Of a stretch of 28,627 nt of DNA, positions 1,905-27,809 are shown one piece after another. Position numbers and translations under genes: made by a program. Position 1 is the first letter of the stretch, and the number at the start of each line of letters is the position of its first letter. Source of the stretch: a virus; the IMG/VR virus record IMGVR_UViG_3300033149_002650, positions 1-28,627 of that record; one strand, 5' to 3'. Below the pieces are notes generated by a model. The model worked only from the letters and a program-made list of their open reading frames with translations. It ran no database searches and was not told where the DNA came from.

Positions 1905-2564
1905 TTATAATGGAATTTGACCTCCCATTTTACTTACTTCTTGATCATTCAAATACCTTGGATATACTGCAAAAAAATCATAAATTCCTTGAAACCGGCT
2001 GTTATTATTTAATTTAAAATAAGTATCATGTGTTCCAGTACTATCTGTAGACACAGATGGTCCTAAAATACTTTGCCCATCTAAAATTGTATTATATTTA
2101 CTATTAGATTGATCTATTCTAAAAATTACTGTATACCATTCATTAATAGAAAGAACTGGTCCAGAACCATCAGTATTCATTACGCCTTTACTTAGTGACT
2201 GACTTCTTATCTTGCCCGATGGTAAAACCCATAATCCAACATCTCCAGTTCCACCACAATTACAGTAAAATAAGTCCCTATTATGATCCTCCCCTATAGA
2301 TGTTAATTTAAATCTTATAATTGCTGACCAAAGGTCACTATTAAAAGACCAACTAGAACTTTCGACATTTCCGCTAAATTCTGTATATATAATTCCTTTG
2401 CCATAACAACCATCTGTAATTGATCCCCCAGTTCTAGTTCCATGTCTGCCATTACCACTTGAGTCTTGTGGATTGCCGCTAGTTTCATTCATTTTCCATA
2501 TTAAGGCTGGACTGGATGGATTATTTTCATCTGCATCTCGATGATAATATCTATGAAATTTCAT
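1905..2564 (-). CDS. LamG/concanavalin A-like lectin domain tail protein
   Basis: 219 residues that read as one concanavalin A-like (LamG/Laminin_G_3) jelly-roll. Typical signs are the entry LIWKMNETSGN followed by DSSGNGRHGT near residues 22-43, the alternating strands with aromatic residues, the NEWYTVIFRIDQS strand near 140-150, and the closing strand IYDFFAVYPRYLNDQEV near 195-210. In tail proteins such domains bind cell-surface or secreted glycans, so a receptor-binding or capsule-binding role is likely. The gene starts one base after the stop of the fibre gene just upstream, so the two may form one appendage. There is no signal peptide or catalytic residue pattern of a depolymerase. The fold call is firm; the function is inferred. 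Confidence 0.8.
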   Translation of the reverse strand: MKFHRYYHRDADENNPSSPALIWKMNETSGNPQDSSGNGRHGTRTGGSITDGCYGKGIIYTEFSGNVESSSWSFNSDLWSAIIRFKLTSIGEDHNRDLFYCNCGGTGDVGLWVLPSGKIRSQSLSKGVMNTDGSGPVLSINEWYTVIFRIDQSNSKYNTILDGQSILGPSVSTDSTGTHDTYFKLNNNSRFQGIYDFFAVYPRYLNDQEVSKMGGQIPL

Positions 2565-11882: not shown

Positions 11883-13469
11883 TTACATTCGCATAAATCT
11901 TGTTTGTCTCCTTTGTGGCATATATTTGTATAGCGGGTATGCTGCTACTTCTGTTGTTACATACCAATAATCTGTTTGTAATATTGTTGTTGCTGGCGGA
12001 GATGGGCTTGGCGATATTGAGGGGCTAATACTGGGGCTGACAGATGGACTCAAAGAGGGCGAGATTGAGGGAGATAATGATGGCGATAACGATACGCTTG
12101 GACTGACTGATGGCGAGAGGCTCGGAGATATAGAGGGGCTGATACTAGGACTGATTGAAGGACTGATAGATACACTTGGAGAAACTGAGGGACTAATACT
12201 AGGAGACAAACTTGGTGATAAAGAAGACGAAAGAGAAGGACTTAAAGATACACTTGGACTAACCGATGGGCTTAGACTAGGAGATAAACTTGGTGAAATT
12301 GAAGGTGATAGTGATGGGGACAAGCTAACGCTTGGCGAAACTGATGGGCTTAAACTAGACGAAACACTTGGACTCAAAGAAGGTGAAATTGATGGAGAAA
12401 TTGAAGAAACTGTATAAGTAACCTCTAATTTAGGGTCTTCTGTTGTACCATCTGTTTCCGACATGGAAATATCTACTGCATTTTCTGTTGGACTTGATCC
12501 TGAATCGATTGCACTATTTAATAAATCATGACCCTCCCTCATTCCTATTTTGGTATAACCTGTTTTAGAAATCCAATCTAGGCCAGTTGCATTTAAAGTC
12601 CAAGTATTATAAGCATTAGTATTGATACTTCCAATATCAATCTGATCACTTCCTTCTTCAATCGATGCTTGATCAGCCCTGCCAGCAGTACCATTATCTG
12701 AACCACAATCAATATAATCATCATTTTGTAAAGCAGTATTGCTTGCCTGAAAGGTTTCAACGATTGCTAAATAATCATCGCCATCATTATCATCATTAAC
12801 TTTTGAATTAACATATCCCTTGAAAACAGCCGCACTAATTTCTGAACTTGATCCTATCTCAGAAGTATCAATAGGAAAAAACAAACGCTTAATATAATAA
12901 ACATTGTTAAAAAATAAAGTAGTAACTGGTGATGCCGCAGAAGTATAATCACTTTCTTCTCCTGTACTATCGTGGGCAGTATTCCAATTAGCATCAGAAA
13001 CAACACACTGTCCATCTCCGGCCCCAGAATATATAGGGTCCCCAGAAGCTAAGAATAATTGAGGGAATACTCTTGGTTGTTCAAATAGCCCGCAGTAATT
13101 TAAAAGTCCTTGATATTGGCTTAAATCAGCATAAATCTTATAATTTCTTTCCTTTTTAAGACTCTCTAAAACATTAACAGCAGCTAAAGCATAATAAAGT
13201 TTTTTAGCAAAAAGAGGATAAGTTCTAAAAACAGCTTTATTCTTATAAAAATAGGCATTAGGAACAAGTTTGTGGATTTTTTCTGAAGGTTTAATTTCGT
13301 GATTGATACCTAAGAATTTTCTACCAAACCGATTATTAGCAAGTTTAATAAGAGGTTTTTGATACTTTTTAAATATATCTTTAACCTTTTGTCTATTTTC
13401 CTCAATCTTCTTTTCTTTTCTTATTTGGTAGTATTCTGGAGAATAAACTCCATTTTCTTTTTTAAACAT
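11883..13469 (-). CDS. DNRLRE-like protein fused to SPS repeat array
   Basis: 528 residues from ATG 13469, which has AAGGCGG upstream and directly follows the upstream TAA (TAATAATG); an in-frame TTG at 13499 would overlap that gene and lacks a site. Residues about 1-120 are helical and basic (KDIFKKYQKPLIKLANNRFGRK). About 130-350 is a beta domain ending TEDPKLEVTYT, the DNRLRE-type closing strand. About 355-491 is a Ser-Pro-Ser-(I/L/V) array. The tail is PPATTILQTDYWYVTTEVAAYPLYKYMPQRRQTRFMRM. It is paralogous to 5712-6725 apart from the array. It is probably an extended virion surface fibre whose array acts as a stiff or glycosylated stalk; that role is inferred. Confidence 0.75.
   Translation of the reverse strand: MFKKENGVYSPEYYQIRKEKKIEENRQKVKDIFKKYQKPLIKLANNRFGRKFLGINHEIKPSEKIHKLVPNAYFYKNKAVFRTYPLFAKKLYYALAAVNVLESLKKERNYKIYADLSQYQGLLNYCGLFEQPRVFPQLFLASGDPIYSGAGDGQCVVSDANWNTAHDSTGEESDYTSAASPVTTLFFNNVYYIKRLFFPIDTSEIGSSSEISAAVFKGYVNSKVNDDNDGDDYLAIVETFQASNTALQNDDYIDCGSDNGTAGRADQASIEEGSDQIDIGSINTNAYNTWTLNATGLDWISKTGYTKIGMREGHDLLNSAIDSGSSPTENAVDISMSETDGTTEDPKLEVTYTVSSISPSISPSLSPSVSSSLSPSVSPSVSLSPSLSPSISPSLSPSLSPSVSPSVSLSPSLSSSLSPSLSPSISPSVSPSVSISPSISPSISPSISPSLSPSVSPSVSLSPSLSPSISPSLSPSVSPSISPSISPSPSPPATTILQTDYWYVTTEVAAYPLYKYMPQRRQTRFMRM
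11997..12407 (-). repeat. Ser-Pro-Ser-X coding repeat array (shorter copy)
   Basis: About 137 codons of the tetrapeptide Ser-Pro-Ser-(Ile/Leu/Val), with a periodic slip SVS(L/I)SPS in which one Pro is absent. Serine codons switch freely between TCN and AGY and the Pro codons vary, so the DNA is far less repetitive than the protein. It is the same repeat type as the larger array in the neighbouring gene. Confidence 0.9.
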
Positions 13470-13471
13470 TA

Positions 13472-16400
13472 TTAAACCGCCTTCTGATAAACCCTGCAAA
13501 CTATTACATTACTAGCGCTTTTGTAATTGGTTAAATCTGCTATATTTCCGCTTAAAGTAAAATCAGTGTCTACAGCCGAACTATTGTCGCTGTCTACTGT
13601 TTCCCAAGCAGACGTATCATGATTATATATTTGTAAGTAAACTGTTGAGAAAGACGGCGCGCAGTTTGTCTGTCCCTCCCACTCTAAACTAACAGAATTA
13701 GAAGCTCCCACATAATCCTTAAACTGATGAATTGCATATTCGTCTGTCGCACTCTGGCTCACTCTTACATCATTTTTAGTATCTACATCTAAGTAATCTT
13801 GTTCTGAATAATCATTTTCCAAAGCAAGTATTCCTGTTGGTAAACTGGCATAATCGCCTCTAGTATATGCCTCCCATCCTGGACTTGGTGATGGCGATAT
13901 ACTAGGCGAGATTGAAGGGCTTAGGCTTGGACTTACTGATGGACTAAGCGACGGACTCAGACTCGGACTAAGCGATACTGACGGCGACACCGATGGTGAA
14001 AGACTAGGGCTTAAACTCGGTGAAACTGAGGGCGATAGGGACGGACTCAACGAAGGACTAATTGAAATAGATGGTGAGACTGAAGGACTAACCGAGGGAG
14101 ACAGGGACGGTGAAATACTAGGACTTAAAGACGGACTCAAAGAAACAGACGGGCTGACACTAGGACTGATAGAAGGGCTTAAACTCGGTGAAAGACTTGG
14201 TGAAATCGAAGGAGAGAACGAGACTGACGGGCTAATTGAGGGAGAAAGACTAGGTGATAAACTAGGTGATATAGACGGACTTAAACTGGGCGATAGAGAC
14301 GCCGAAGGTGAAACCGATGGCGAAATACTGGGTGATAGACTTGGACTGAGTGAAGGACTGACACTCGGACTCAAAGAAGGACTCAAAGAAACAGATGGAC
14401 TGACCGATGGCGAAATACTTACACTAGGTGATACAGAAGGTGAAATAGACGGGGAAATACTCGGGCTGATTGATGGGCTAATACTTACTGACGGGCTTAC
14501 CGATGGGCTAATTGAAGGAGATATACTAGGGGACAAACTCGGGCTTATAGATGGTGAGATTGAAGGACTGACTGAAACAGAAGGAGAAACACTCGGTGAA
14601 ATTGAAGGGCTTAAACTAGGTGAAACACTAGGACTTATGCTTGGCGACAGGGACGGACTAATAGATGGGCTTATAGAAGGAGATAAACTCACACTCGGAC
14701 TCACAGAAGGACTAATTGAAGGAGATAAACTTGGTGATAAGCTTGGCGACAAAGAAGGTGAAAGTGACACACTCGGTGATACTGACGGCGAAACTGAAGG
14801 AGACAACGATGGACTTATGGATGGTGATATAGACGGGCTTAGTGAAACAGACGGACTAACACTGGGCGAGATAGATGGACTAATTGATGGACTTAGTGAC
14901 ACTGATGGGCTGACCGAAGGTGAAATACTCGGTGATAAACTTGGACTAATTGAGGGACTCAAACTGGGACTGATTGATACTGATGGCGATACCGAGGGAC
15001 TGATTGACGGTGATAGGCTCGGAGATAAACTAGGACTTAAAGAAGGAGACAACGACACGCTGGGCGAAACCGAAGGGCTGATGCTCGGGCTGATAGACGG
15101 AGAAATTGAAACTGATGGAGAGACACTAGGAGAAATAGACGGACTTAAACTAGGACTTAAACTAGGACTCAAAGAAACTGAAGGACTTACGCTGGGACTG
15201 ATGGAAGGGCTTAAACTCGGCGATATGCTTGGTGAAATTGAAGGCGAAAGTGATACTGACGGACTCACAGACGGAGAAATACTTGGCGATAAAGACGGAC
15301 TCAAAGATGGACTAATACTCGGCGATAAAGATACTGATGGCGAAACGCTAGGAGAAATAGAAGGGCTAATACTAGGACTGATTGAAGGACTAAGAGATGG
15401 CGATATAGATACCGAAGGACTAACTGATGGACTGATTGAAGGAGAAATTGATGGTGAAAGAGATGGACTAATGCTTGGACTTACAGAACCCGCCGTTGTA
15501 TAAGTGCAGTAAATAGCCATCTCGCGGTCTCTACTGGCATCCTCAACAAATGGATCAGGCCAAGTTCCGTAAGTCTGTACGTCTTCTTTGAAATAATCAG
15601 CCGTTCCCGTGTCATACCAGTAACGAATATTTGGCCTACACCAAAAGACCAAATAGTAATCAGTGCTGGCCGATAAAGAACCGCCTGTCAAATCAACAGT
15701 CCATTGCTGTTTTGTGGTGGAATTAATATAAGCCTCATCCGTTCCCCCATCTATTAAGTTATAGCTTAAATCATAAATAGCCGCTTTGACATTTGCATAA
15801 TCACCAGAACCAACAGCATTACTATAAAAACTCATTGAGGATGCCGTTCCAGCCGTCGCTCCCATTGTAAATCTAGATCCCCTAATACGATCGTCACTCC
15901 AATAACCGCTTGAGGCTCCCTCGCTTTCTGTCCCAAAAAGAGGATCAACGCTTACAGGATAAACTGCTTTGTTTAACCAGTCTTGGTCGATTGTGATTGT
16001 TAAAGTATCACGAGCCTTATCTATTTTTAATTCTCCCCAAATTTCTTTTCCAGCCGCGTCTTTTATTTTTGGCCTATAAATATGAAACGCCTTGCCTGTT
16101 TTATAATTTTTGCCGCCCACTTGAGAATAATCGTTCTTCTTGGTCGCATGATAAACAGCGTAAGACCCGATTACATTTTCAGGCCGATGACAACCTTCAT
16201 CTTTTTCTTCTTGGGTTAATTCAGGTTGATAAAGAAATCTTAATCCCTTGGTTTCTATTGAAAATTCAAGGATATTAGAAGCGGGCTTTTCTTTAAGGAT
16301 GACTTCAAATTCATAATTCTTGCCATCCTCATAGAAGTAAACCTCTTTCTTGCTACCAATCAGCTTTATCTTTTCGCCTTCAGTAGTTAAAGTTTTTGGC

Positions 16401-16615
16401 TCGTCGTCAATTAACCTAAACGAAGCATTAACTTCATTCGACCACCTGGATAATTTAAACTGAGGCCTGAAAACCGACAAGTCTTTGTCGTCTCCCAAGA
16501 CAATATCAATTCTATCTTCCCAATTTTCCTTTACACACTTTAAAATAGCCTTTTTTCCAAGGTCTAAGTTGTATCCTTTATCCATCAGTGTTTTTGGTAA
16601 TTCTGTTATTTCCAT
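13472..16615 (-). CDS. Giant virion protein with 536-residue SPS array
   Basis: 1047 residues. Residues 1-228 form a mixed domain whose second half (GCHRPENVIGSYAVYH, then TGKAFHIYRPKIKDAAGKEIWGEL and KAVYPVSVDPLFG) is a module I recognise from tail-type proteins of uncultured phages. Residues about 229-374 are a beta-sandwich (GSRFTMGATAGTASSMSF, STDYYLVFWCRP). Residues 377-912 are an uninterrupted Ser-Pro-Ser-(I/L/V) array. Residues 913-1047 form a final beta-sandwich (VSLEWEGQTNCAPSF to VIVCRVYQKAV). It looks like a long stalk joining two globular ends. It follows the glycosyltransferase cassette directly, 0 bases from the GT stop, and the Ser-rich array is a natural O-glycan acceptor. The role as fibre or spike is inferred. 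Confidence 0.8.
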   Translation of the reverse strand: MEITELPKTLMDKGYNLDLGKKAILKCVKENWEDRIDIVLGDDKDLSVFRPQFKLSRWSNEVNASFRLIDDEPKTLTTEGEKIKLIGSKKEVYFYEDGKNYEFEVILKEKPASNILEFSIETKGLRFLYQPELTQEEKDEGCHRPENVIGSYAVYHATKKNDYSQVGGKNYKTGKAFHIYRPKIKDAAGKEIWGELKIDKARDTLTITIDQDWLNKAVYPVSVDPLFGTESEGASSGYWSDDRIRGSRFTMGATAGTASSMSFYSNAVGSGDYANVKAAIYDLSYNLIDGGTDEAYINSTTKQQWTVDLTGGSLSASTDYYLVFWCRPNIRYWYDTGTADYFKEDVQTYGTWPDPFVEDASRDREMAIYCTYTTAGSVSPSISPSLSPSISPSISPSVSPSVSISPSLSPSISPSISPSISPSVSPSVSLSPSISPSLSPSLSPSISPSVSPSVSLSPSISPSISPSLSPSISPSVSPSVSLSPSLSPSLSPSISPSVSPSVSISPSISPSISPSVSPSVSLSPSLSPSLSPSLSPSISPSVSPSVSISPSLSPSISPSLSPSISPSVSPSVSLSPSISPSISPSVSPSVSLSPSISPSISPSLSPSVSPSVSPSVSLSPSLSPSLSPSLSPSISPSVSPSVSLSPSISPSISPSLSPSISPSVSPSLSPSISPSVSPSVSVSPSISPSISPSLSPSISPSISPSVSPSVSISPSISPSISPSISPSVSPSVSISPSVSPSVSLSPSLSPSVSPSLSPSLSPSISPSVSPSASLSPSLSPSISPSLSPSLSPSISPSVSFSPSISPSLSPSLSPSISPSVSPSVSLSPSLSPSISPSLSPSVSPSVSPSISISPSLSPSLSPSVSPSLSPSLSPSVSPSVSLSPSLSPSLSPSVSPSLSPSISPSISPSPSPGWEAYTRGDYASLPTGILALENDYSEQDYLDVDTKNDVRVSQSATDEYAIHQFKDYVGASNSVSLEWEGQTNCAPSFSTVYLQIYNHDTSAWETVDSDNSSAVDTDFTLSGNIADLTNYKSASNVIVCRVYQKAV
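13880..15487 (-). repeat. Ser-Pro-Ser-X coding repeat array (1.6 kb)
   Basis: 536 codons of Ser-Pro-Ser-(Ile/Leu/Val), residues 377-912 of the giant protein. A higher-order rhythm is set by the slip motif PSVS(L/I)SPS, which recurs roughly every 20-30 residues and shifts the tetrapeptide phase. TCN and AGY serine codons are intermixed and all Pro third positions vary, so direct DNA repeats stay short. Rare Ala or Phe replace the aliphatic position (PSASLSPS, PSVSFSPS). Confidence 0.92.
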
Positions 16616-17587
16616 CTATCTCTCTTTTCTTTTTAACTCTTTAAGGTCTTTATCTGACCATCCTGGAACTGGCCAGAACTTCTCAACTAACCAGCTAACA
16701 GGATATTTTTGATTGACCAGTCTGCCACCCATTATTTGTCTCCAAACGTTCTCCTTTGTTTTAAGCTGTTCTCTACCAGAAACAGGCCATGGGAATTTGA
16801 GATTTTGATTAGTTCTAAATAAATGCGCGTACCATGTATTGTGATTAACCAATACCCTCCCGCCTGAAAGCCACATTTTACAGCTTACTTCTATCCCTTG
16901 ATGTCCCCAACTCCCAAGAGTTTCATCGCAAAGATTTAATTTTAAATATTTCTTTCTAGTTACCATAAAACACGACCCCTGAATACTCATGGTTTCGGTT
17001 AATCCTTTTTCTTTCTTATTTTTAATATACTGGGGTCTATGTTTCCAATCTTCAAAATAACAAAAAGTCGGCACGGCATTAAAACAATAAGATGTGCTTT
17101 GGGGATTATGTTTACCAATCCACACCAGTTTCTTCCTTATATATCTTGAGTCATTACAGCCAGGACACCTCATTCCCTTTTTCCCATTGGCTTGATATAC
17201 TTTATAACCACATCTATAGCACTTCCAGTCAAACGCCCACAAATTTCTCATAATCGGGAGCATAACCACGTTGTCCCCTGTTTTCTTAAACGCTTCCAGC
17301 ATTTTTACATCAAATCCCTCATCAAAAGCGCAATGAGCATCCAGCTTCATCACATACTTGCCCTGCGCCAATGAGACACAACGGTTAGTTATCGCCCGCT
17401 GGCCAATAGACTCAGGATAGTAAATGATATTTACGTCAGGATTTTGAACTAATGGCGGGTCTGCCCATTGACCATCCAGCCCAACAATAACTTCAGTATC
17501 AGCCCGTTTGTTTTTAAGAATATCTTCAACAGTATTCTTTAAAAATTCTTCTTGTCTCGCTGGTATTAGTATTGATAAATCTTTCAT
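16616..17587 (-). CDS. GalNAc-transferase-like GT2 with inserted zinc ribbon
   Basis: 323 residues. The GT-A entry is LSILIPARQEEFLKNTVEDIL, with VIVGLDGQW at 33-41. KLDAHCAFDEGF (81-92) gives the DxH metal motif (83-85), the form used by polypeptide GalNAc-transferases. MSIQGSCFMVTRKKYL (200-215), GSWGHQGIEVSCKMWLSGG (225-243) and TWYAHLFR (251-258) match the acceptor and gate region of the same superfamily, including the final metal-type His. Between them, residues 123-144 carry CxxC-x14-CxxC, a zinc ribbon rarely seen in GT2 enzymes. The ATG overlaps the upstream stop (ATGA) and its stop abuts the giant SPS protein. It is cytoplasmic, with no signal peptide. Sugar and acceptor are unknown; O-glycosylation of the SPS array is a hypothesis. 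Confidence 0.82.
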   Translation of the reverse strand: MKDLSILIPARQEEFLKNTVEDILKNKRADTEVIVGLDGQWADPPLVQNPDVNIIYYPESIGQRAITNRCVSLAQGKYVMKLDAHCAFDEGFDVKMLEAFKKTGDNVVMLPIMRNLWAFDWKCYRCGYKVYQANGKKGMRCPGCNDSRYIRKKLVWIGKHNPQSTSYCFNAVPTFCYFEDWKHRPQYIKNKKEKGLTETMSIQGSCFMVTRKKYLKLNLCDETLGSWGHQGIEVSCKMWLSGGRVLVNHNTWYAHLFRTNQNLKFPWPVSGREQLKTKENVWRQIMGGRLVNQKYPVSWLVEKFWPVPGWSDKDLKELKRKER

Positions 17588-17892
17588 AGCTTTTCCCTTT
17601 TTAATAGTGTTGTTGATGTTGATATCGCAGCAGGTGAACCAAATGTTCCTGGTGGAATTTTGTTCCTTTTACATTTCACATTAGTACAATAAAAAGCTGT
17701 AACATAATTACACATCACACAATCTAATTTACTTCCACATAAATCACATGGCTCTTTGAGTTTCCCTTCAACATATTTCTCAAAATCTCTTCGTGCCTTT
17801 TTCCACTTCTTATTCATATCGCCACCACAAACAACACATTTACCATCTACCGAACTAGTTGGTTTTTTACATTTACAATGTTTCATTCTCAT
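17584..17892 (-). CDS. Cysteine-rich zinc-ribbon protein
   Basis: 102 residues with ten Cys: CKC near 6-8 with CVVC 19-22, CDLC 49-52 with CVMC 58-61, and C69/C74 (YCTNVKC). Two or three zinc sites are likely. A basic helix (KKWKKARRDFEKYVEGKL) separates the first two. The C-terminal 25 residues are Ser/Thr-rich and low complexity (PAAISTSTTLL). ATGA overlaps join it to the genes on both sides within the glycosylation cassette. Zinc ribbons can bind RNA, DNA or protein. It might assist the adjacent glycosyltransferase, which also holds a zinc ribbon, but no function is shown. Confidence 0.72.
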   Translation of the reverse strand: MRMKHCKCKKPTSSVDGKCVVCGGDMNKKWKKARRDFEKYVEGKLKEPCDLCGSKLDCVMCNYVTAFYCTNVKCKRNKIPPGTFGSPAAISTSTTLLKREKL

Positions 17893-18632
17893 AAGTTAAA
17901 TATCTCCTCCATTGTTCCCCAATAGGGCAATTTATATCTTCTTTTTGTCCCCCGCCTATTTTTAGTTAAATTATTACTGTGTCTAATATCTACATTTGGA
18001 ATAGTAGTTCTCCAATTCTTTCCCTTATATTTAGATAAATATTGTTTTAATTTCTCTCTTACATGAGCAATGCTTTTACCTCTAGCCAATCTCATCGCAT
18101 GGTCATAGTCCATCGCTCCTGCCTCGCCTATTCTTCCCGATGGATACCTTTTAAACCAAGCAGGATCGCTCATCATATCTATCCTATCTTGGGTAGCTTG
18201 GATCATTATTTTAGTACCACAGATAAGCTGAGAATTAACCTTCCGTTTCTTAAAAAATGAAAACATACCATTGTATTGAGGATTGTCTTTACTGTAATAC
18301 TGCAACATATAAACATTTTCGTTATACCAGAATGTTTCTTTATCTGGGGGAACAAAAGTAAAATGTTCTTTGGTATAAAGACAGTCATGTTCCGCTATTG
18401 CGATAAAATCAGTTTTCACTATTTTTAAGGCTTCCATCATTTGTTTATTTATTGTCAAACTATTTCTCTCCATTTTTCCGACGCAGATATTATGTCCAAA
18501 ATCAATAGGTTTCTGAGACACAGATATTAATGGAAGGTCGCCAATAGATTTAAGAATATTTTTTTGGCACATCAAAAATATATCTCTGTCTAATACATTG
18601 TCTGTGATATATATAACAGTTTTATTTTTCAT
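17889..18632 (-). CDS. Glycosyltransferase-like protein (EHDCLY family, copy 1)
   Basis: 247 residues. DLPLISVSQKPIDFGHNICVG (32-52) and TDFIAIAEHDCLYTKEHFTFVPP (74-96) contain the likely nucleotide-sugar and metal motif EHD (81-83), a DxD variant. The end carries KLPYWGTMEEIF. The gene at 19277-19933 shares all these blocks (SVSQKP, NICVG, ExDCLY, PYWG), so the two are paralogues. A DYDHAMRLARG segment near residue 175 is likely on the acceptor side. There is no signal peptide. It overlaps the zinc-ribbon gene by four bases and follows the methyltransferase by three. GT-A fold is inferred from motif order; donor and acceptor are unknown. Confidence 0.72.
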   Translation of the reverse strand: MKNKTVIYITDNVLDRDIFLMCQKNILKSIGDLPLISVSQKPIDFGHNICVGKMERNSLTINKQMMEALKIVKTDFIAIAEHDCLYTKEHFTFVPPDKETFWYNENVYMLQYYSKDNPQYNGMFSFFKKRKVNSQLICGTKIMIQATQDRIDMMSDPAWFKRYPSGRIGEAGAMDYDHAMRLARGKSIAHVREKLKQYLSKYKGKNWRTTIPNVDIRHSNNLTKNRRGTKRRYKLPYWGTMEEIFNL

Positions 18633-18635
18633 ATA

Positions 18636-19247
18636 TTAACGGATAAAAAACCAGCTCAGTGCATGATCTTTTTGCATCTTTCCATTTGTTTCTCCTAAAA
18701 TATACCAATTCTTTATTCTCAAAGCCTTCATAAATGCATCTACAACAGGACCAACATGATTAATATTATTGCGGATAGATAAAATAGGGGTAAAATAATC
18801 GTGTCCCGCAACTATTCCTCCTTTTCTAACCTTCCATGTCCAATCGTAAATATCTTCCGCAACATGCTTAAAATTATGATCCCCATCAATGTATACAAAG
18901 TCCAAACTCCTATCTTTGAAATAATGAACAGCATCCATTGACGTTTTTCTAATAATCGTGCAATCATTATAGGGAGCTAATGCTCTTTGCGTATGCTTAT
19001 AAAGAAATTCTTGTCTTTCTTGATTTTTTGCTCCCCTTCCAGTACTAGCGTAAGAATGCCACGGATCGATCGCATACATCTTCAGCCCCGCCTTACAAAA
19101 CTTCTCTGTAAACGCCCCCTTATAAACACCAATTTCTGCCCCGACCGTATAACCCATTTGCTTAAAAAACTCTGGCAGTTCGTCCCTTGAACAATCAGGT
19201 ATTTCAAATGGGCTTCCTTTTTGTTTAATTCCTTCAATTATTTTCAC
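18636..19247 (-). CDS. Class I SAM-dependent methyltransferase
   Basis: 203 residues with the full Rossmann set: GAEIGVYKGAFTEKF (36-50, SAM glycine motif), MYAIDPWHSY (57-66, acidic residue binding the ribose), DFVYIDGDHNFKHVAEDI (116-133, motif of the Methyltransf_24/TylF-like group) and GGIVAGHDY (143-151). Length fits that group, whose members often methylate sugars or small hydroxyl groups. The start is GTG at 19247 with AAAGGAG five bases upstream. Placed among glycosyltransferases, it probably methylates a sugar or a sugar precursor used by them. Nucleic acid methylation is less likely, since no target-recognition domain or NPPY-type motif is seen. Confidence 0.85.
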   Translation of the reverse strand: MKIIEGIKQKGSPFEIPDCSRDELPEFFKQMGYTVGAEIGVYKGAFTEKFCKAGLKMYAIDPWHSYASTGRGAKNQERQEFLYKHTQRALAPYNDCTIIRKTSMDAVHYFKDRSLDFVYIDGDHNFKHVAEDIYDWTWKVRKGGIVAGHDYFTPILSIRNNINHVGPVVDAFMKALRIKNWYILGETNGKMQKDHALSWFFIR

Positions 19248-19276
19248 AAATACTCCTTTCTATTGGCATAATTATT

Positions 19277-19933
19277 TTATTTAATATATTTAATCCGCAA
19301 TAAGTCTGCTCGTCCCCAGTATGGGATTTCTGACCTGTCTATTCTGTCAGAATGAGTATATGTCCTCATTGATTGGCTTGTCTTAATCTGAACAACAGGA
19401 TTTTTGGTTTCCCAATACTCTATTTTATTAAACACATCAACCTTGCGATGCCGCTCCCGGGGGAAGTTTTTTTCTTCTACGCTCCATTTTGGCGCCCCCT
19501 CAAATAAATAATTCAACCTATCCAAATAATATTTTCTGCCGATAACTTGAGCATGGGTTGCTCCTTCTTCTTTTTTCCAAAAGATGGGTCTTTTATGCGC
19601 CATTACATACAGGTTGGAATTGCGATAACAGATATCATCTCTTTCGGGAATAAACTTGAAATAATCTGGCGGGTATAGACAATCTGCTTCTGCTGATATA
19701 ACAAACTTGGTCTTGGCTTGGTTTAATCCTATCTGGACTTGACGAAACATATTAAATCCTGACGCTCCGACATCTCCTACGCAGATATTCTTTCCCAATC
19801 TCATTGGCTTTTGCGACACGCTGATAATGGGTAAATCCCCGCCAACTTTTAATAAATTGTCAATAATCCGTTTTTCAAAATCAGGTTTTTCTTTATTGGA
19901 TGTATAGTATAAAATTGTGGCTAAACTTTTCAT
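19277..19933 (-). CDS. Glycosyltransferase-like protein (EADCLY family, copy 2)
   Basis: 218 residues, paralogue of the protein at 17889-18632. Shared blocks are DLPIISVSQKPMRLGKNICVG (33-53), FVISAEADCLYPPDYFKFIPE (77-97, EAD 82-84 as the DxD-like motif) and the C-terminal EIPYWGRADLL. The middle diverges (HKRPIFWKKEEGATHAQVIG, KYYLDRLNYLFEG), suggesting a different acceptor. No membrane segment or signal peptide is present. It starts at ATG 19933, two bases after the upstream stop. Two retained, diverged copies suggest sequential addition of two different sugars or acceptors, which is inferred. Confidence 0.72.
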   Translation of the reverse strand: MKSLATILYYTSNKEKPDFEKRIIDNLLKVGGDLPIISVSQKPMRLGKNICVGDVGASGFNMFRQVQIGLNQAKTKFVISAEADCLYPPDYFKFIPERDDICYRNSNLYVMAHKRPIFWKKEEGATHAQVIGRKYYLDRLNYLFEGAPKWSVEEKNFPRERHRKVDVFNKIEYWETKNPVVQIKTSQSMRTYTHSDRIDRSEIPYWGRADLLRIKYIK

Positions 19934-19935
19934 TT

Positions 19936-20730
19936 TTATAATGCTATAAAATCTTTATTTTTAAATCTTCCCTTTTTAGTTCCTGTAATTCCATAAGAAC
20001 GAAACAGTTTAATCAATCTTTCTGACATTAAAGGAATACCTAATTTATTTTTACCATACATAAAGATATTTAAAGGGATATCTGGCATGGCGCTATCCTT
20101 ATAGTAAGGGAAAAAATGAACAACCTTCAGGGGTTTGGTAGCAAGATTATAATTATGCTCAACGTTCCTCATTCCAATTTGATAGGTTATATTTAACTCT
20201 TTGATTCTACTGTTAATATTATCTTTGTTCTCTTTGGTTAATTTTACTAAGGCTCTCTCGTCTTCATTTTGAATTTCATAAATTGTATCCACTATCGCTT
20301 TAAAAATATCTTTTGCCGATAGTTTGAAAAAATAACTACCTAGACACCATTTTTTAGACCAACCATAAGTTGTAAATCCTGCATCGTAATTATCAAGCTC
20401 TAATTCTGAATCTTTTATAGGATAATTTTGATAAGCCTCAAGGTCATGAGACCAATATATTTCATCTTCCTTTAATAAATCTTTCTCCAATAAATATGAC
20501 ACCACAGTAGTTTTTGTTGAACACGCCCTATTTTTAACCGTGCAAAATCCTTCATCGCCAATAACAATAGATTTAATTCCATTATATTGATAATCAAAAT
20601 TAGTCATTACTATTATATCTTCTTTCTTCCATCCTAAATCATAGCTATTATCAATCTGAAATCTCATTAAATTTTCATACGAATCAAGAAAACGTTTCTC
20701 TGGAGTTACAAATGTTAATAAATTCTTCAT
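19936..20730 (-). CDS. Glycan-modification protein, GT-A-like, unassigned
   Basis: 264 residues from ATG 20730, chosen because it gives a four-base ATGA overlap; a TTG three codons earlier (20739) is weaker. The N-terminus MKNLLTFVTPEKRFLDSYENL and the IIVMTNFDYQYNGIKSIVIG strand-turn suggest a nucleotide-sugar fold. CSTKTTVVSYLLEKDLLKEDEIYWSHDLEAYQ carries a possible SHD metal motif (94-96). AGFTTYGWSKKWCLGSYFFKLS resembles the acceptor side of GT-A enzymes. I do not recognise the family. Its place between two glycosyltransferases makes a role in the same glycan most likely. Confidence 0.6.
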   Translation of the reverse strand: MKNLLTFVTPEKRFLDSYENLMRFQIDNSYDLGWKKEDIIVMTNFDYQYNGIKSIVIGDEGFCTVKNRACSTKTTVVSYLLEKDLLKEDEIYWSHDLEAYQNYPIKDSELELDNYDAGFTTYGWSKKWCLGSYFFKLSAKDIFKAIVDTIYEIQNEDERALVKLTKENKDNINSRIKELNITYQIGMRNVEHNYNLATKPLKVVHFFPYYKDSAMPDIPLNIFMYGKNKLGIPLMSERLIKLFRSYGITGTKKGRFKNKDFIAL

Positions 20731-21509
20731 ATTCCCCAACGTTTTTTAATTTCTTTCTCGTAATAATCCCGCCAAACCTTCAAAGCATACAATCCGCTTT
20801 CTCTTCTTAATGACGGGTTTTCTTTAGTCCCTTCATGCCTGCCCTGCGTAAAACTTCTGTGCTTGTGAGCATACCAAGTCTTCTTATTTAATATCAATCG
20901 GCCGCCCCTTTTCCAATATTTAAATACCATTTCATGCGAGTCCTGATACATTTGCCCATAACCTTCAGTTTGCAATTCGCCGACAATATCCACAAAACAT
21001 TTTTTCCTTGTTACCCACATTGATCCCTGCATGGCCATTGTTTCCACCAAGTCCCTATTTTTATACTTTTCATCCCTTGAACGCCACCTTTGTCCAGAAA
21101 ATTTCCTGCCATCCTGAATGACTAATTTCTGAGTTAAAACCGGCTCTATATTCATCACTTCCCATTTAATAGGGTCAAGAAAATACTGGGGGGCTGTGAC
21201 GATCCATTTGCGCGGACAATTTTCTGTTAATATCCTGTCATAGCCCTCGCCAAACATACAATGCTGGTCTGTCCGCATTATATACTTGCCCCTAGAAACA
21301 GCTACGCCGGCATTAATAGCCCCTCTCATGCCGCGGTTCTTGCCTAAATGGACTATTTTTATTCTTCTGTCTTCTTTAATTTGAGTAACAGGCCAATAAC
21401 CATCTAATACGGGGATAACCTCAATCTCGCCTCTGGCATTTTTAAGAAGGGAATCTATTGTTTTATGAAGTAATGGATCCCTATAGCTTGGGATGATAAC
21501 TGAAAGCAT
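20727..21509 (-). CDS. GalNAc-transferase-like GT2 glycosyltransferase
   Basis: 260 residues. MLSVIIPSYRDPLLHKTIDSLL is a typical GT2 start, VIPVLDGYW (31-39) the first donor motif, and GKYIMRTDQHCMFGEGYD (74-91) holds DxH (81-83). TMAMQGSMWVTRKKCF (157-172), GYGQMYQDSHEMVFKYWKRGG (183-203) and TWYAHKHR (211-218) follow in the same order as in the enzyme at 16616-17587, so the two are paralogues; this one lacks the zinc ribbon. ATG 21509 has GGAGG six or so bases upstream. It opens the cassette right after a structural gene. A cytoplasmic transferase acting on a phage protein or nucleotide-linked sugar is likely. Confidence 0.82.
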   Translation of the reverse strand: MLSVIIPSYRDPLLHKTIDSLLKNARGEIEVIPVLDGYWPVTQIKEDRRIKIVHLGKNRGMRGAINAGVAVSRGKYIMRTDQHCMFGEGYDRILTENCPRKWIVTAPQYFLDPIKWEVMNIEPVLTQKLVIQDGRKFSGQRWRSRDEKYKNRDLVETMAMQGSMWVTRKKCFVDIVGELQTEGYGQMYQDSHEMVFKYWKRGGRLILNKKTWYAHKHRSFTQGRHEGTKENPSLRRESGLYALKVWRDYYEKEIKKRWGI

Positions 21510-25110: not shown

Positions 25111-25302
25111 TTACTTCTTTTTGTGCAAATACTTTTTAGCGTGAATTATATCGGTGCTAAATACTTTGCCCCCCCTTACTATACAACTTACTGACACATC
25201 GCCGTACCCAGTGGCATTCGCCACTTTCTCAATCTCCTTCTCTAATAAATAAAGATATGGTTTATCTGCTTGAAGTATTTTTAACAACTTTTCTTCGTTC
25301 AA
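25111..25302 (-). CDS. Small hypothetical protein after terminase
   Basis: 63 residues, starting at TTG 25302 in a TTGA overlap with the terminase stop; GGAGG lies seven bases upstream, so the rare start is credible. The N-terminal half is helical (EEKLLKILQADKPYLYLLEKEIEK). The centre reads VANATGYGDVSVSCIVRGGKVFSTDII, a possible beta-hairpin, and the end is basic (HAKKYLHKKK). I know no family. Tight coupling to the terminase suggests a packaging or regulatory accessory. Confidence 0.65.
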   Translation of the reverse strand: MNEEKLLKILQADKPYLYLLEKEIEKVANATGYGDVSVSCIVRGGKVFSTDIIHAKKYLHKKK

Positions 25303-27809
25303 AATAAATCCTCCAGTTCTCTGTCCTGCGGAATTATATTTTTATTAGATTGCGCTTGGATTGATTGCGTTAATGGTCTTTCTTGGGCTTTAGTAATTGG
25401 ATTATCTGTCTGTTTTGTGTCTTGCGATACGGCAAAATAACGCAAACTATCCATACAGTCGTCAAATACTTTCTCTGGCATATCTGGTTCGGTCGCATCC
25501 TGCGTCTGTATTGTTGTCCGTTTCTGCTTCCACTTATAATTCTCAAACTCCCTTATAGTATTAACACACCTGCTAAATACATAAAGTCTGGGCATCTTAT
25601 AAATACCATTTTCGCCGTATTTAGTGGGGTATATCTTTTGTATATGAGGCACAAAGTGTCCTGGCATTACTTTTAATGCTTCAGCGATTTTCTCAATACC
25701 CAGCCTAACCCAATGCCCCTGCTGTGTTCCCGTTTCCTTAATTGCCTTTGTCATATAAATACCTCTATCTCTAAACTCATCAATCCATTGGGCGCCGCTA
25801 GGATCGGCATAGGCATATAGAACGCGGCCAAAATAAGGATTAGATTTAATTACACCAGCATGATAATCAATCGTCTTGCCCGACTCAAAGTATTCGTCAA
25901 TAACAAACCAGTTACCATCGTTATCAACCGCTATCCATAAAAATACCGTCGGATGTCTTGTGCCAAAATCAACGCCTCCGTATATCTGCCAACCTCCAGG
26001 AATATCGAAAGGTTCAACAACATGAATATTGCGATCAAATTCCTTATACACTAATCCTGTAAATTTGGTGAATTTGGCTAAAACTTCTTGATCAAAATAA
26101 CCCTTTGTTGATTCTTTTCTAATCTTCTCAATTTCCTCTCTTGTAATATAAGGATTATCGTATGTAGTAAACCTGTAAGTAATATAGTCTGGGTCAAGTT
26201 CAACCGGCGCTAACGGCTCGCCCTCAATAATATTATTATGATCGCCTCGCTTAGCCAAAGTATGAAAGTGATTATATCCCCTCGGCTTGCTAATAAATAA
26301 AGCTCCAGCGCCAGTGTCCATTAACATCGGCCTTAATGAGCTTTGCCAACATTCATCCCAGTTCTTAGCCGCCGCTATCTCATCGCCGACAAAATAACTT
26401 AAGCCAACCCCCTCTAAAGACACAGGATTATCCAAGCCTTTAAGAGCAATTTTATTACTGTTGCATAATTGAATTGATAATTCAGTTTCGTTGTCTTTCT
26501 TTGGATTTCTAAGCGGCGGTCTGGCGAATTTTTTAAGCATACGCCACGCTATTTGTTTAGCCTGCTTATATGTTGGCGCCGCATACCAGAAAGGAAACTC
26601 AGCCGGCTTCCTAAGCGCCCTTACAATCAACTCATTAACTGACAGGGTCGTATTATGAGTAGCAATTAATCCTTTTCCTGCTAAAAACAAATGTGACTTA
26701 CTATCTACTTCTAAACATTTCACTGGCACGCTTTTTACTTTCTCAACATTAATTATAAATTTCCTACCAATATCTGTTTTTCCATTTCTATTATATTTCT
26801 TTTTTCTTTCAACTCTTGCTATTTCCTCTTTGGCAGTAAAATGAACCCTATATCTTTTTCCACAATTCTTTCCATTTAAAGTAGCCATACCAACACCCAC
26901 AGTTGCCTTTAATCCTAGCGACCTACAAAGTCGTAAATAATCTTGAGATAGCCTTTTTAACTTAGTTGATATTTCTATATATCCCTTATCTCTAACATGG
27001 CCATCGCTATCCACTAGTCCCTTAAGCAATTCTTTTCTTTGTTCAATACTTGATAACAAATATTCTAAAGGAATATGTTTATTTTCCAAGACATTTAACT
27101 TTCTCAAGGCGCCCTGTAATGTAAAACCTTTTCCTCCTGCCTTGCCTGTTGTAATAGAATATCTAACAATTCTGTCTTTAGTATTAGTTTTTGTAACTTG
27201 CATCGAAAGCCTATCAGCATATTCATATAAATACTTTATAATTTCTTTCTCCGCAGTAAAAATACCCACATTCCCACTTGAACCATCGCCAAGCCATAAT
27301 CCTAGAAAATAGGGCTCAATCGGCAAGTCCTTTTTATCCATTTCAACTGGTAAAGCAACGGGAATAGCATAATTATGTTCAATTCCTTTATCTGGTCGAA
27401 TAAATAAATATGACTTATATATCTGCTCAGTTGTTAACTTTTGTTTTCTAATTTTAGTATTTTTAGTGCGGGCAATATTCTTTCTATATGATTTTGTCTC
27501 CACTATCCAATCATGAGAAGCATCGGCAATTATCTTTGCGCCATCTGAAAAGGTAATTTTATAGCATTCCCTATTTTTGTATTCTGGAGAAACATAAATT
27601 ACTTTAGTTTTCTTTCCTTTTTCATTAAACACAATATCGCCTATTTGTATATCTCTTAATCTTTTAAAACCACTAACTGTTAAAATTGGAGTTTCTATCC
27701 AAAGTGCTTTTCCAAATCTCCTCCCGCATACCAAAGTTCTAAACCTATGCTTATCCTTATGAATTATTAATTGTGCTGGATGTGGTTTGTATATTGAATC
27801 ATAGTTCAT
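25299..27809 (-). CDS. terL: Terminase large subunit with intein in Walker A
   Basis: 836 residues; 484 after splicing. The extein start has TLVCGRRFGK (25-34), the Walker A loop, cut by the intein after Lys 34 and resumed at TTLSVNELIV (387-396). Walker B is LSYFVGDE (470-477) with the catalytic Glu at 477, and the coupling motif SKPRG follows at 507-511. The RNase H-like nuclease shows GGVDFGTRHP (611-620; Asp 614), YADPSGAQW (667-675; Asp 669) and DDCMDSLRY (783-791; Asp 783/784/787). This is the motor that packages DNA into the procapsid and cuts concatemers. Until the intein is removed the ATP site is split, so the precursor should be inactive. ATGA overlaps link it to the gene before and a TTGA overlap to the gene after. 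Confidence 0.93.
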   Translation of the reverse strand: MNYDSIYKPHPAQLIIHKDKHRFRTLVCGRRFGKALWIETPILTVSGFKRLRDIQIGDIVFNEKGKKTKVIYVSPEYKNRECYKITFSDGAKIIADASHDWIVETKSYRKNIARTKNTKIRKQKLTTEQIYKSYLFIRPDKGIEHNYAIPVALPVEMDKKDLPIEPYFLGLWLGDGSSGNVGIFTAEKEIIKYLYEYADRLSMQVTKTNTKDRIVRYSITTGKAGGKGFTLQGALRKLNVLENKHIPLEYLLSSIEQRKELLKGLVDSDGHVRDKGYIEISTKLKRLSQDYLRLCRSLGLKATVGVGMATLNGKNCGKRYRVHFTAKEEIARVERKKKYNRNGKTDIGRKFIINVEKVKSVPVKCLEVDSKSHLFLAGKGLIATHNTTLSVNELIVRALRKPAEFPFWYAAPTYKQAKQIAWRMLKKFARPPLRNPKKDNETELSIQLCNSNKIALKGLDNPVSLEGVGLSYFVGDEIAAAKNWDECWQSSLRPMLMDTGAGALFISKPRGYNHFHTLAKRGDHNNIIEGEPLAPVELDPDYITYRFTTYDNPYITREEIEKIRKESTKGYFDQEVLAKFTKFTGLVYKEFDRNIHVVEPFDIPGGWQIYGGVDFGTRHPTVFLWIAVDNDGNWFVIDEYFESGKTIDYHAGVIKSNPYFGRVLYAYADPSGAQWIDEFRDRGIYMTKAIKETGTQQGHWVRLGIEKIAEALKVMPGHFVPHIQKIYPTKYGENGIYKMPRLYVFSRCVNTIREFENYKWKQKRTTIQTQDATEPDMPEKVFDDCMDSLRYFAVSQDTKQTDNPITKAQERPLTQSIQAQSNKNIIPQDRELEDLF
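26652..27707 (-). other. LAGLIDADG intein inside TerL (352 aa)
   Basis: Residues 35-386 of the precursor. The first residue is Ala (ALWIETPILTVSGFKRL, splicing block A), the block B equivalent is ADASHDW, and the end is CLEVDSKSHLFLAGKG, then LIATHN with the usual terminal His-Asn, followed by Thr as the +1 residue. Ala at position 1 implies direct attack by the +1 residue on the N-terminal junction, as in other Ala-start inteins. A homing endonuclease is embedded: LGLWLGDG (intein 135-142) and LLKGLVDSDG (intein 227-236) are the two LAGLIDADG motifs, both with Asp. All blocks look intact, so splicing and homing may both be active. Confidence 0.9.

Follow-up and report, generated by a model that had tools for sequence, protein, structure and literature searches.

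A cassette of glycosyltransferase genes found in a tailed-phage fragment probably encodes a sugar-coating kit for Ser-Pro-Ser-X (SPSx) proteins, given that its enzymes are almost always encoded beside genes for such arrays. We judge it likely that this is a self-contained module for stepwise protein O-glycosylation in the cytosol, with the adjoining SPSx-array proteins as its substrates. No published description of the cassette was found in the open-licence literature.

The window, meaning the whole stretch of DNA analysed, comprises 28,627 nt of virus record IMGVR_UViG_3300033149_002650. Protein scans recognized phage genes for TerS, TerL, the portal and the major head protein on the record that encodes the glycosyltransferases, and the cassette is flanked by the portal and capsid (major head protein) genes. 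An earlier note made from the DNA letters had proposed a cassette at this site; its open reading frames lie where it placed them, all on the minus strand, and the cassette is real (Table 1). Most neighboring genes overlap or lie apart by a few bases only; the methyltransferase and GT_D are 29 bases apart. A Pfam scan of the window's cassette proteins found no glycosyltransferase of another type (for example, GT group 1).

Table 1. Cassette genes and adjoining array genes in the window
Feature	Coordinates	Strand	Evidence or remark
GT_A, DxH GT2-type glycosyltransferase, 260 aa, first cassette gene, GT_B paralogue	20727-21509	-	PF00535 1.7e-14
GT_E, conserved cassette protein, 267 aa, invariant H98-D99, E161, H208-F209	19936-20739	-	Relatives in 18 GT_B loci
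GT_D, E-A-D type GT_C paralogue, GT-A fold presumed from GT_C	19277-19933	-	Invariant E, D, F
SAM-dependent methyltransferase, Methyltransf_24 family	18636-19247	-	PF13578 2.7e-15
GT_C, E-H-D type GT-A-fold protein	17889-18632	-	AF2 pLDDT 91.6; GT-A enzyme PDB fold matches
Small Cys-rich protein, 102 aa, particular to the window	17584-17892	-	No Pfam match above cut-off
GT_B, polypeptide GalNAc-transferase-like, 323 aa, Cys4 insert	16616-17587	-	phmmer, profile, AF2, Foldseek
First SPS-array protein, 1047 aa, proposed substrate	13472-16615	-	Directly after GT_B
SPSx array of first array protein, 536 residues, codons 377-912	13880-15487	-	
Second SPS-array protein, 538 aa, array roughly 12000-12410	11883-13499	-	N-terminal part in 4 loci

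The first array gene starts at 16615, the base adjoining the end of GT_B at 16616, and its product holds exactly 536 residues of SPSx, both as the earlier note had described. These residues comprise 268 Ser, 125 Pro and 143 others (almost all Ile, Leu or Val), with no Thr. The serines are written with 112 AGY and 156 TCN codons, and the 122 SPSx units give 112 distinct 12-mers with a mean nucleotide identity of 0.55; given this codon diversity and low identity between units, the array did not arise by recent expansion of a DNA repeat. The N-terminal part of the protein recurs in 10 cassette loci, as does the C-terminal part in 10, and the second array protein follows the first. Tat signal peptides were sought on the array proteins and none were found. 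A plus-strand ORF of 288 aa (14637-15503) was rejected as a gene, being the antisense mirror of the array.

By sequence, profile and fold, GT_B groups with the polypeptide GalNAc-transferases (GalNAc-Ts), which initiate mucin sugar chains in animals, rather than with capsule GT2 enzymes. It matches PF00535 in Pfam (4.1e-11), phmmer matched it to ppGalNAc-T10 in the PDB (5.8e-6), and a profile search of the PDB matched it to GalNAc-T1 (2.6e-11). For its AF2 model (pLDDT 93), GalNAc-Ts make up all 50 of the top 50 PDB matches in Foldseek (best 1.2e-17); they are absent from the top 50 Foldseek PDB matches of GT_C, a different GT-A protein. Residues D83, H85 and H255 are invariant in the alignment and retained in nearly all of 112 rows of a second, and H255 aligns with the histidine of GHVFR/GHIYR. 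In GalNAc-T2, the corresponding DxH and third metal-binding histidine are D224, H226 and H359, and GT_B retains three putative metal ligands. The HxFR...FP loop (H255-x-F257-R258 and F265-P266) is also conserved, aligning to GHVFRKATPYTFPG of GalNAc-T1.

The likeness has limits. The WGGEN donor motif of GalNAc-Ts is replaced in GT_B by WGHQG, WGNQG or WGSQG, so donor and acceptor may differ, and by Pfam the 323-aa protein has no ricin-type lectin domain; with motif and domain both missing, the labels 'GalNAc' and 'mucin-type' are not established. Mammalian GalNAc-Ts prefer Thr to Ser, which counts against the model in that the arrays here are almost free of Thr. GT_B carries a conserved Cys4 insert, and its longer relatives bear a GT_C/D domain or GIY-YIG/NUMOD3. 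A set of 50,697 phage records yielded no relatives of GT_B and one partial match to GT_A.

GT_A and GT_B are paralogous by profile comparison (probability 100, E 9.4e-73), and both have the DxH motif, in agreement with the earlier note; its attribution of WGHQG and WYAHxFR blocks to both enzymes stands only in part, since WGHQG occurs in GT_B only, GT_A showing no more than DxH and WYAHxxR. The PDB matches of GT_A include GalT1 (7e-5) and GalNAc-T4 (3.5e-4), and most cassette loci have a GT_A-like gene. The pair of EHD/EAD-type paralogues, GT_C and GT_D, was correctly recognized in the same cassette. The AF2 model of GT_C has GT-A enzymes as its PDB fold matches (for example, WrtF, SpsA, AvpGT and TarP), and GT_C is probably a later-step glycosyltransferase; a GT_C/D-type gene is present in 71 of the 78 IMG/VR loci with the cassette. 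The GT_C/D alignment is very divergent, too much so for a collection scan. GT_B is fused with GT_C/D in 47 ORFs, which we counted in favor of enzymes acting in a chain; homology of GT_C/D to GT_B from a profile match (E 2e-52) was discarded because the GT_B set includes these fusions. The SAM methyltransferase, also named earlier, occurs in 58/78 loci and has a profile match to PDB 6g7d (1.4e-5); it plausibly methylates sugars. GT_E had been called a fifth GT-A-like protein, a label not borne out, as we found no convincing relative in Pfam, PDB or NCBIfam. The Cys-rich protein exists as described, yet has no relative in other cassette loci (GT_B itself has the conserved Cys4 insert).

Gene order in the 78 loci is mostly as in the window, and the predicted co-occurrence of the glycosyltransferases with SPS arrays is strong whether the search begins with GT_B or with the arrays. 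Starting from GT_B, 51 viral loci extend 3 kb or more beyond this gene on its downstream side, and every one of them has an SPS array. On the same strand, 43 of the 51 have an array gene whose start is no more than 3 kb downstream of GT_B, and in half of the 43 the distance is about 150 bp or less. Counting against the model, some loci have their array upstream of the cassette or at a distance of several kb. Starting from arrays, with records gathered without reference to glycosyltransferases, both GT_B and GT_C/D were present in 9 of 16 records with Ser-type arrays of at least 100 aa, versus a cassette in none of 34 records with Thr-type arrays (Fisher p 4.6e-6). The seven cassette-less Ser-type records, which also weigh against the model, comprise five SPSx fragments of at most 28 kb and two with SPSP or SPSR repeats. 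An initial array pattern restricted to TC codons returned mostly short SP runs, so a seven-unit pattern was adopted; in the TC-codon set, no locus with an array below 100 aa had the cassette.

The association spans different phage backbones. Among 50 cassette-bearing records, 30 have a TerL match, whereas only 4 contain the window's portal and 3 its major head protein, a variation that we counted as evidence of backbone independence; portal-based retrieval in IMG/VR found no sister phages. Outside the viruses, 31 of 37 bacterial GT_B loci come from named Patescibacteria, and the host of the cassette phages is probably a member of this group of tiny bacteria. GT_B occurs in 4 of 287 Patescibacteria genomes, and the three genomes richest in array-pattern matches (96, 84 and 62) are among these four. 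Among 30 array loci from 30 Patescibacteria genomes, only one has SPSxSPS repeats, and its genome is GT_B-positive; the remaining 29 hold mainly TPT arrays, with some SP-dipeptide arrays. The chromosomal GT_B copies cluster in the GT_B tree, and tatC neighbors the module in these chromosomes. Two chromosomal islands examined in full keep the arrays and have housekeeping genes on their flanks; no phage head genes were recognized in them. TerL (phrog_2), the only marker in our prophage check, was found in 3 of 16 GT_B-bearing bacterial genomes, and in none of the three did it share a contig with the best GT_B match, so prophage remnants could lie elsewhere. As Patescibacteria chromosomes bear it too, the module is not confined to phages. 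Comparisons across backbones and chromosomes reduce lineage effects, but do not remove them.

In the mechanism we propose, GT_B, as initiating enzyme, and/or its paralogue GT_A would start the glycan by moving a sugar from a nucleotide-sugar donor onto array serines, GT_C and GT_D would extend the chain, and the methyltransferase would cap the sugars. The densely glycosylated array would then form a rigid stalk or fibre of the virion. We infer the glycosylation itself, the order of steps, the sugar and the methylation target; that the arrays are virion parts is suggested by their location among head genes. Counted for the module was the likeness of GT_B, in sequence and model, to enzymes that glycosylate protein Ser/Thr directly, and for a cytosolic route the lack of multi-pass membrane proteins: none of 553 ORFs in viral cassette spans has two or more predicted TM segments. 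The earlier suggestion that the phage O-glycosylates its own stalk is partly supported: the GalNAc-T likeness and the co-occurrence with arrays favor it, and the missing WGGEN motif and lectin domain and the chromosomal copies qualify it.

It is unlikely that the cassette instead alters host surface glycans (capsule, LPS or another envelope glycan) as in serotype-converting phages, with the arrays as neighboring fibre genes. Some phage GT2 enzymes do modify host surface glycans. Some cassettes hold UDP-glucose/GDP-mannose dehydrogenase or sugar-epimerase genes, and groundwater Patescibacteriota phages are reported to carry O-antigen nucleotide-sugar genes (PMC12911398). However, neither a flippase or polymerase nor any other multi-pass membrane protein is encoded in the viral cassettes (such proteins could come from the host), the association is specific to Ser-type rather than Thr-type arrays, and GT_B is closest to protein-modifying enzymes. 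We see a slim chance that other virion proteins are glycosylated and the arrays only co-travel in the module. This would suit a cassette lying between portal and major head protein genes, and capsid and tail-tube subunits are reported to be glycosylated in mycobacteriophages (Freeman et al. 2023, according to PMC12619734 and PMC11256854); yet it is the array that stays constant from one cassette phage to the next, whereas head protein and portal vary, and the two chromosomal copies keep arrays with no recognized head gene. Quite unlikely, too, is that cassette and arrays are joint markers of Patescibacteria-associated phages and bacteria through shared ancestry or hitch-hiking, with no enzyme-substrate relation: the predominance of named Patescibacteria and the clustered chromosomal copies fit this, but the association persists inside Patescibacteria, spans phage backbones and involves direct adjacency. 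Hypermodification of phage DNA bases is very improbable, even though phage glycosyltransferases can act on DNA (PMC12619734) and part of the methyltransferase matches a PHROG named DNA methyltransferase, in view of the array association, the bacterial chromosomal copies, the similarity of GT_B to peptide-acting enzymes and the lack of any recognized base-hypermodification gene among the window proteins scanned.

Serine-rich repeat glycoprotein (SRRP) loci of Gram-positive bacteria (Fap1, GspB) resemble the favored O-glycosylation module in function more closely than mucins do. They too have a long Ser-rich repeat protein encoded beside several soluble glycosyltransferase genes. Their glycan is built stepwise inside the cell by clustered glycosyltransferases, Fap1 glycosylation involving six genes (PMC5207161), with dedicated export in cells (PMC5578698). 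The cassette differs in its SPSx repeat, its usual methyltransferase, a GalNAc-T-like candidate initiator in place of the GtfA/GtfB pair (Gtf1/Gtf2 in Fap1), and its setting among phage head genes or, in Patescibacteria, beside tatC. Unlike SRRP loci with SecA2/SecY2 export, viral cassettes lack multi-pass membrane proteins and hence SecY2. With GT27 polypeptide GalNAc-transferases, GT_B shares the GT-A fold, DxH, a third putative metal-binding His and the HxFR...FP loop, and the cassette a likely Ser/Pro-rich substrate; GT_B differs in having WG(H/N/S)QG for WGGEN, a Cys4 insert and no ricin-type lectin domain, and in being a soluble phage protein. Mycobacteriophages likewise encode glycosyltransferases, held responsible for virion glycans, but their glycans are on capsid and tail-tube subunits, whereas the conserved partner here is a long array protein. 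SdgA/SdgB, described in PMC3794999 as dedicated to staphylococcal SD-repeat proteins, also serve long Ser-containing repeats, of a different kind.

More broadly, it is possible, if doubtful, that tailed phages and Patescibacteria have in common a mobile O-glycosylation module with a GalNAc-T-like start on SPSx, giving mucin-like phage stalks and Tat-associated bacterial surface stalks, a prokaryotic counterpart of mucin-type O-glycosylation that may be related to its origin. If the proposed module is real, it would give a substrate and function to a widespread, unnamed glycosyltransferase cassette and a function to the giant SPSx proteins of uncultured phages and Patescibacteria, linking phage structure to protein glycosylation. 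Its enzymes, compact and soluble, might be put to use in E. coli for glycosylating Ser-Pro repeats, and in GT_B the polypeptide GalNAc-transferases would have a prokaryotic relative open to direct tests of its sugar and its history. The cassette may also double as a sequence marker for Patescibacteria phages.

The window, a virus record of 28.6 kb, comes from a tailed phage, whose small and large terminases, portal (SU10/P22 type), major head, head-closure and adaptor proteins are all encoded on the minus strand. Between the genes for the portal and the major head protein lies the putative glycosylation cassette, transcribed in the order GT_A, GT_E, GT_D, methyltransferase, GT_C, a cysteine-rich protein and GT_B, then two proteins with long Ser-Pro-Ser-X (SPSx) arrays. 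The array of the first comprises 536 residues (268 Ser, 125 Pro and 143 others, nearly all Ile, Leu or Val) and has no Thr. Its serine codons are mixed (112 AGY and 156 TCN) and its 12-base units are only 55% identical to each other, indicating that the amino-acid pattern is kept rather than a DNA repeat. A 288-residue open frame antisense to this array was rejected, since it arises from the codon pattern of the repeat. A protein with a lectin domain, of a kind reported for groundwater Patescibacteriota phages (PMC12911398), is encoded close to where the structural genes end.

Features with coordinates in the window (no prefix) and in other viral or bacterial loci (L prefix)
Feature	Location	Strand	Support
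Laminin_G_3/concanavalin-A-like lectin domain protein	1905-2564		
Rejected open frame	14637-15503	plus	
Large terminase with intein-like insertion, intein-type homing endonuclease	25299-27809	minus	Hom_end 7.2e-14, LAGLIDADG_3 1.4e-7
Homing-endonuclease extensions of GT_B	L031:10001-11668; L048:9992-12328; L055:10001-12100		GIY-YIG, NUMOD3
Rare cassette members	L020:6459-7532; L051:8190-8888		radical SAM/SPASM, TOD1/MUCI70-like glycosyltransferase
UDP-L-FucNAc-like genes, chromosomal island	L353:1531-4737		WecB-type above cut-off; FnlA-, WbcJ-like below
Patescibacteria islands, cassette and SPS array beside tatC	L352:7987-8718 and L353; L356:15801-16532		
Small ORFs near cassette	L325:370-582; L327:5256-5519		RRKFLK at start

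The paralogous DxH enzymes GT_A and GT_B both match Pfam GT2. When GT_B was searched against the PDB as a single sequence, 15 of 16 matches were polypeptide GalNAc-transferases (GalNAc-Ts; best 5.8e-6), as were all of the best 15 matches to a 33-sequence profile (best 2.6e-11) and all of the top 50 Foldseek matches to its AlphaFold2 model (pLDDT 93; best E 1.2e-17, TM 0.66 by query length). Among its conserved features are D38, D83-x-H85, H255-x-F257-R258, F265-P266 and a Cys4 insert, with H255 aligned to the GHVFR histidine of GalNAc-T1, a metal ligand in that enzyme. GT_B is not filed under CAZy family GT27, because the donor motif WGGEN is changed to WG(H/N/S)QG and a lectin domain is absent, though it probably works like a member of that family. 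GT_A lacks the WGxQG block. Homing-endonuclease domains extend some GT_B ORFs, and so this gene seems to be used as a site by homing elements.

GT_C and GT_D are likewise paralogous; they have diverged and share invariant E, D and F residues. GT_C yields a confident GT-A model, with fold matches to WrtF, SpsA, AvpGT and TarP (best E 2.5e-7, TM about 0.45). GT_E is conserved among cassette loci and matched no known family convincingly. The methyltransferase belongs to PF13578, its profile having a sole PDB match, 6g7d, titled just 'Methyltransferase domain protein'. Fusions of GT_B with GT_C/D in 47 ORFs, 25 of them viral, suggest successive enzymatic steps. Some cassettes include sugar dehydrogenase or epimerase genes, and three adjacent genes in one chromosomal island, which resemble those of the UDP-L-FucNAc pathway, may hint at the sugar used. 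Two further members are rare.

Among 78 relatives of GT_B in IMG/VR, GT_A, GT_C/D, methyltransferase and GT_B mostly keep the same order, with array genes next. Every one of the 51 loci having at least 3 kb beyond GT_B contains an SPS array, which in 43 cases is on the same strand and no more than 3 kb downstream. These arrays, called by composition thresholds, belong to the Ser type, averaging 46% Ser, 3% Thr and 17% Pro, with a median length of 185 residues and a maximum of 951. We also retrieved records by arrays of at least 100 residues, without reference to the glycosyltransferases: among the matches listed, GT_B occurred in 9 of 16 Ser-type records (one mixed), GT_C/D in the same nine, and neither in any of 34 Thr-type records (Fisher p 4.6e-6). 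Considering only records of at least 20 kb, again among the matches listed, the cassette was present in 7/10 versus 0/28 (p 9.5e-6). All loci compared are fragments, and the SPSx records lacking the cassette among those matches are 10 to 28 kb long. Long Thr-Pro-Thr (TPT) arrays form a separate, common class on viral contigs (L201-L312).

The cassette crosses phage backbones. One family model detects TerL in 30 of 50 cassette records, but only four of the 50 have a recognisable counterpart of the window's portal and only three, with one close relative, of its major head protein. Viral and bacterial clades interleave in the GT_B tree, where supported branches force at least five changes of bacterial label.

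Of 37 GT_B loci in bacterial assemblies, 31 carry Patescibacteria names; four have no phylum, one is assigned to Proteobacteria (a 3.2-kb contig) and one to Sedimentisphaerales (Planctomycetota). They have the same cassette, often with arrays. From such relatives only, the host of the window is probably a member of the Patescibacteria. In two chromosomal islands analysed in full, one on a 916-kb Woesebacteria chromosome, cassette and arrays lie between housekeeping genes, and tatC adjoins the array gene. TatC is encoded in 14 of 16 genomes with such GT_B loci and at most 15 kb from GT_B in 11 of the 14, where about 3% per genome is expected (p 2e-14). The 78 viral loci yielded no tatC and are thus not simply mislabelled pieces of these chromosomal islands. 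GT_B occurred in four of 287 sampled Patescibacteria genomes; the three with the most array matches, among the matches listed, were all GT_B-positive, and the fourth GT_B-positive genome had no array match. Array loci were inspected in 30 of the 86 array-positive genomes among the matches listed: SPSxSPS repeats occurred in one, from a GT_B-positive genome, and the other 29 were TPT or SP-dipeptide arrays. This contrast within Patescibacteria is an incomplete control against a pure lineage effect.

By a hydropathy rule, none of 553 ORFs in viral cassette spans is predicted to have more than one membrane segment; the viral cassettes thus appear to lack a flippase, polymerase or oligosaccharyltransferase, which favours direct cytosolic transfer from nucleotide sugars. 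GT_B, GT_A or both would place the first sugar on array serines, GT_C/D would act next and methylation would come last. Since the phage array proteins have their genes amid those for the head and no signal peptide was seen on them, their likely destination is a virion fibre or stalk. For bacteria, Tat-linked export of the arrays is only a guess, since no Tat signal was found on the array proteins examined. Small ORFs near two cassettes start with a textbook Tat signal motif.

By analogy, the serine-rich-repeat glycoprotein (SRRP) locus offers the closest working model: the glycan of Fap1 is built in steps by the products of six genes (PMC5207161), and the SRRP glycan is assembled inside the cell (PMC5578698, abstract). 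Virion glycosylation is known from mycobacteriophages, as PMC12619734 and PMC11256854 describe. For groundwater Patescibacteriota phages, the accessible text of PMC12911398 reports sugar-nucleotide and lectin genes and no cassette of the present kind, and we found no published description of the cassette in the open-licence literature. The principle is already known; what is new, as far as could be checked, is that a GalNAc-T-like enzyme is combined with SPSx arrays, with phage mobility and with a link to Patescibacteria.
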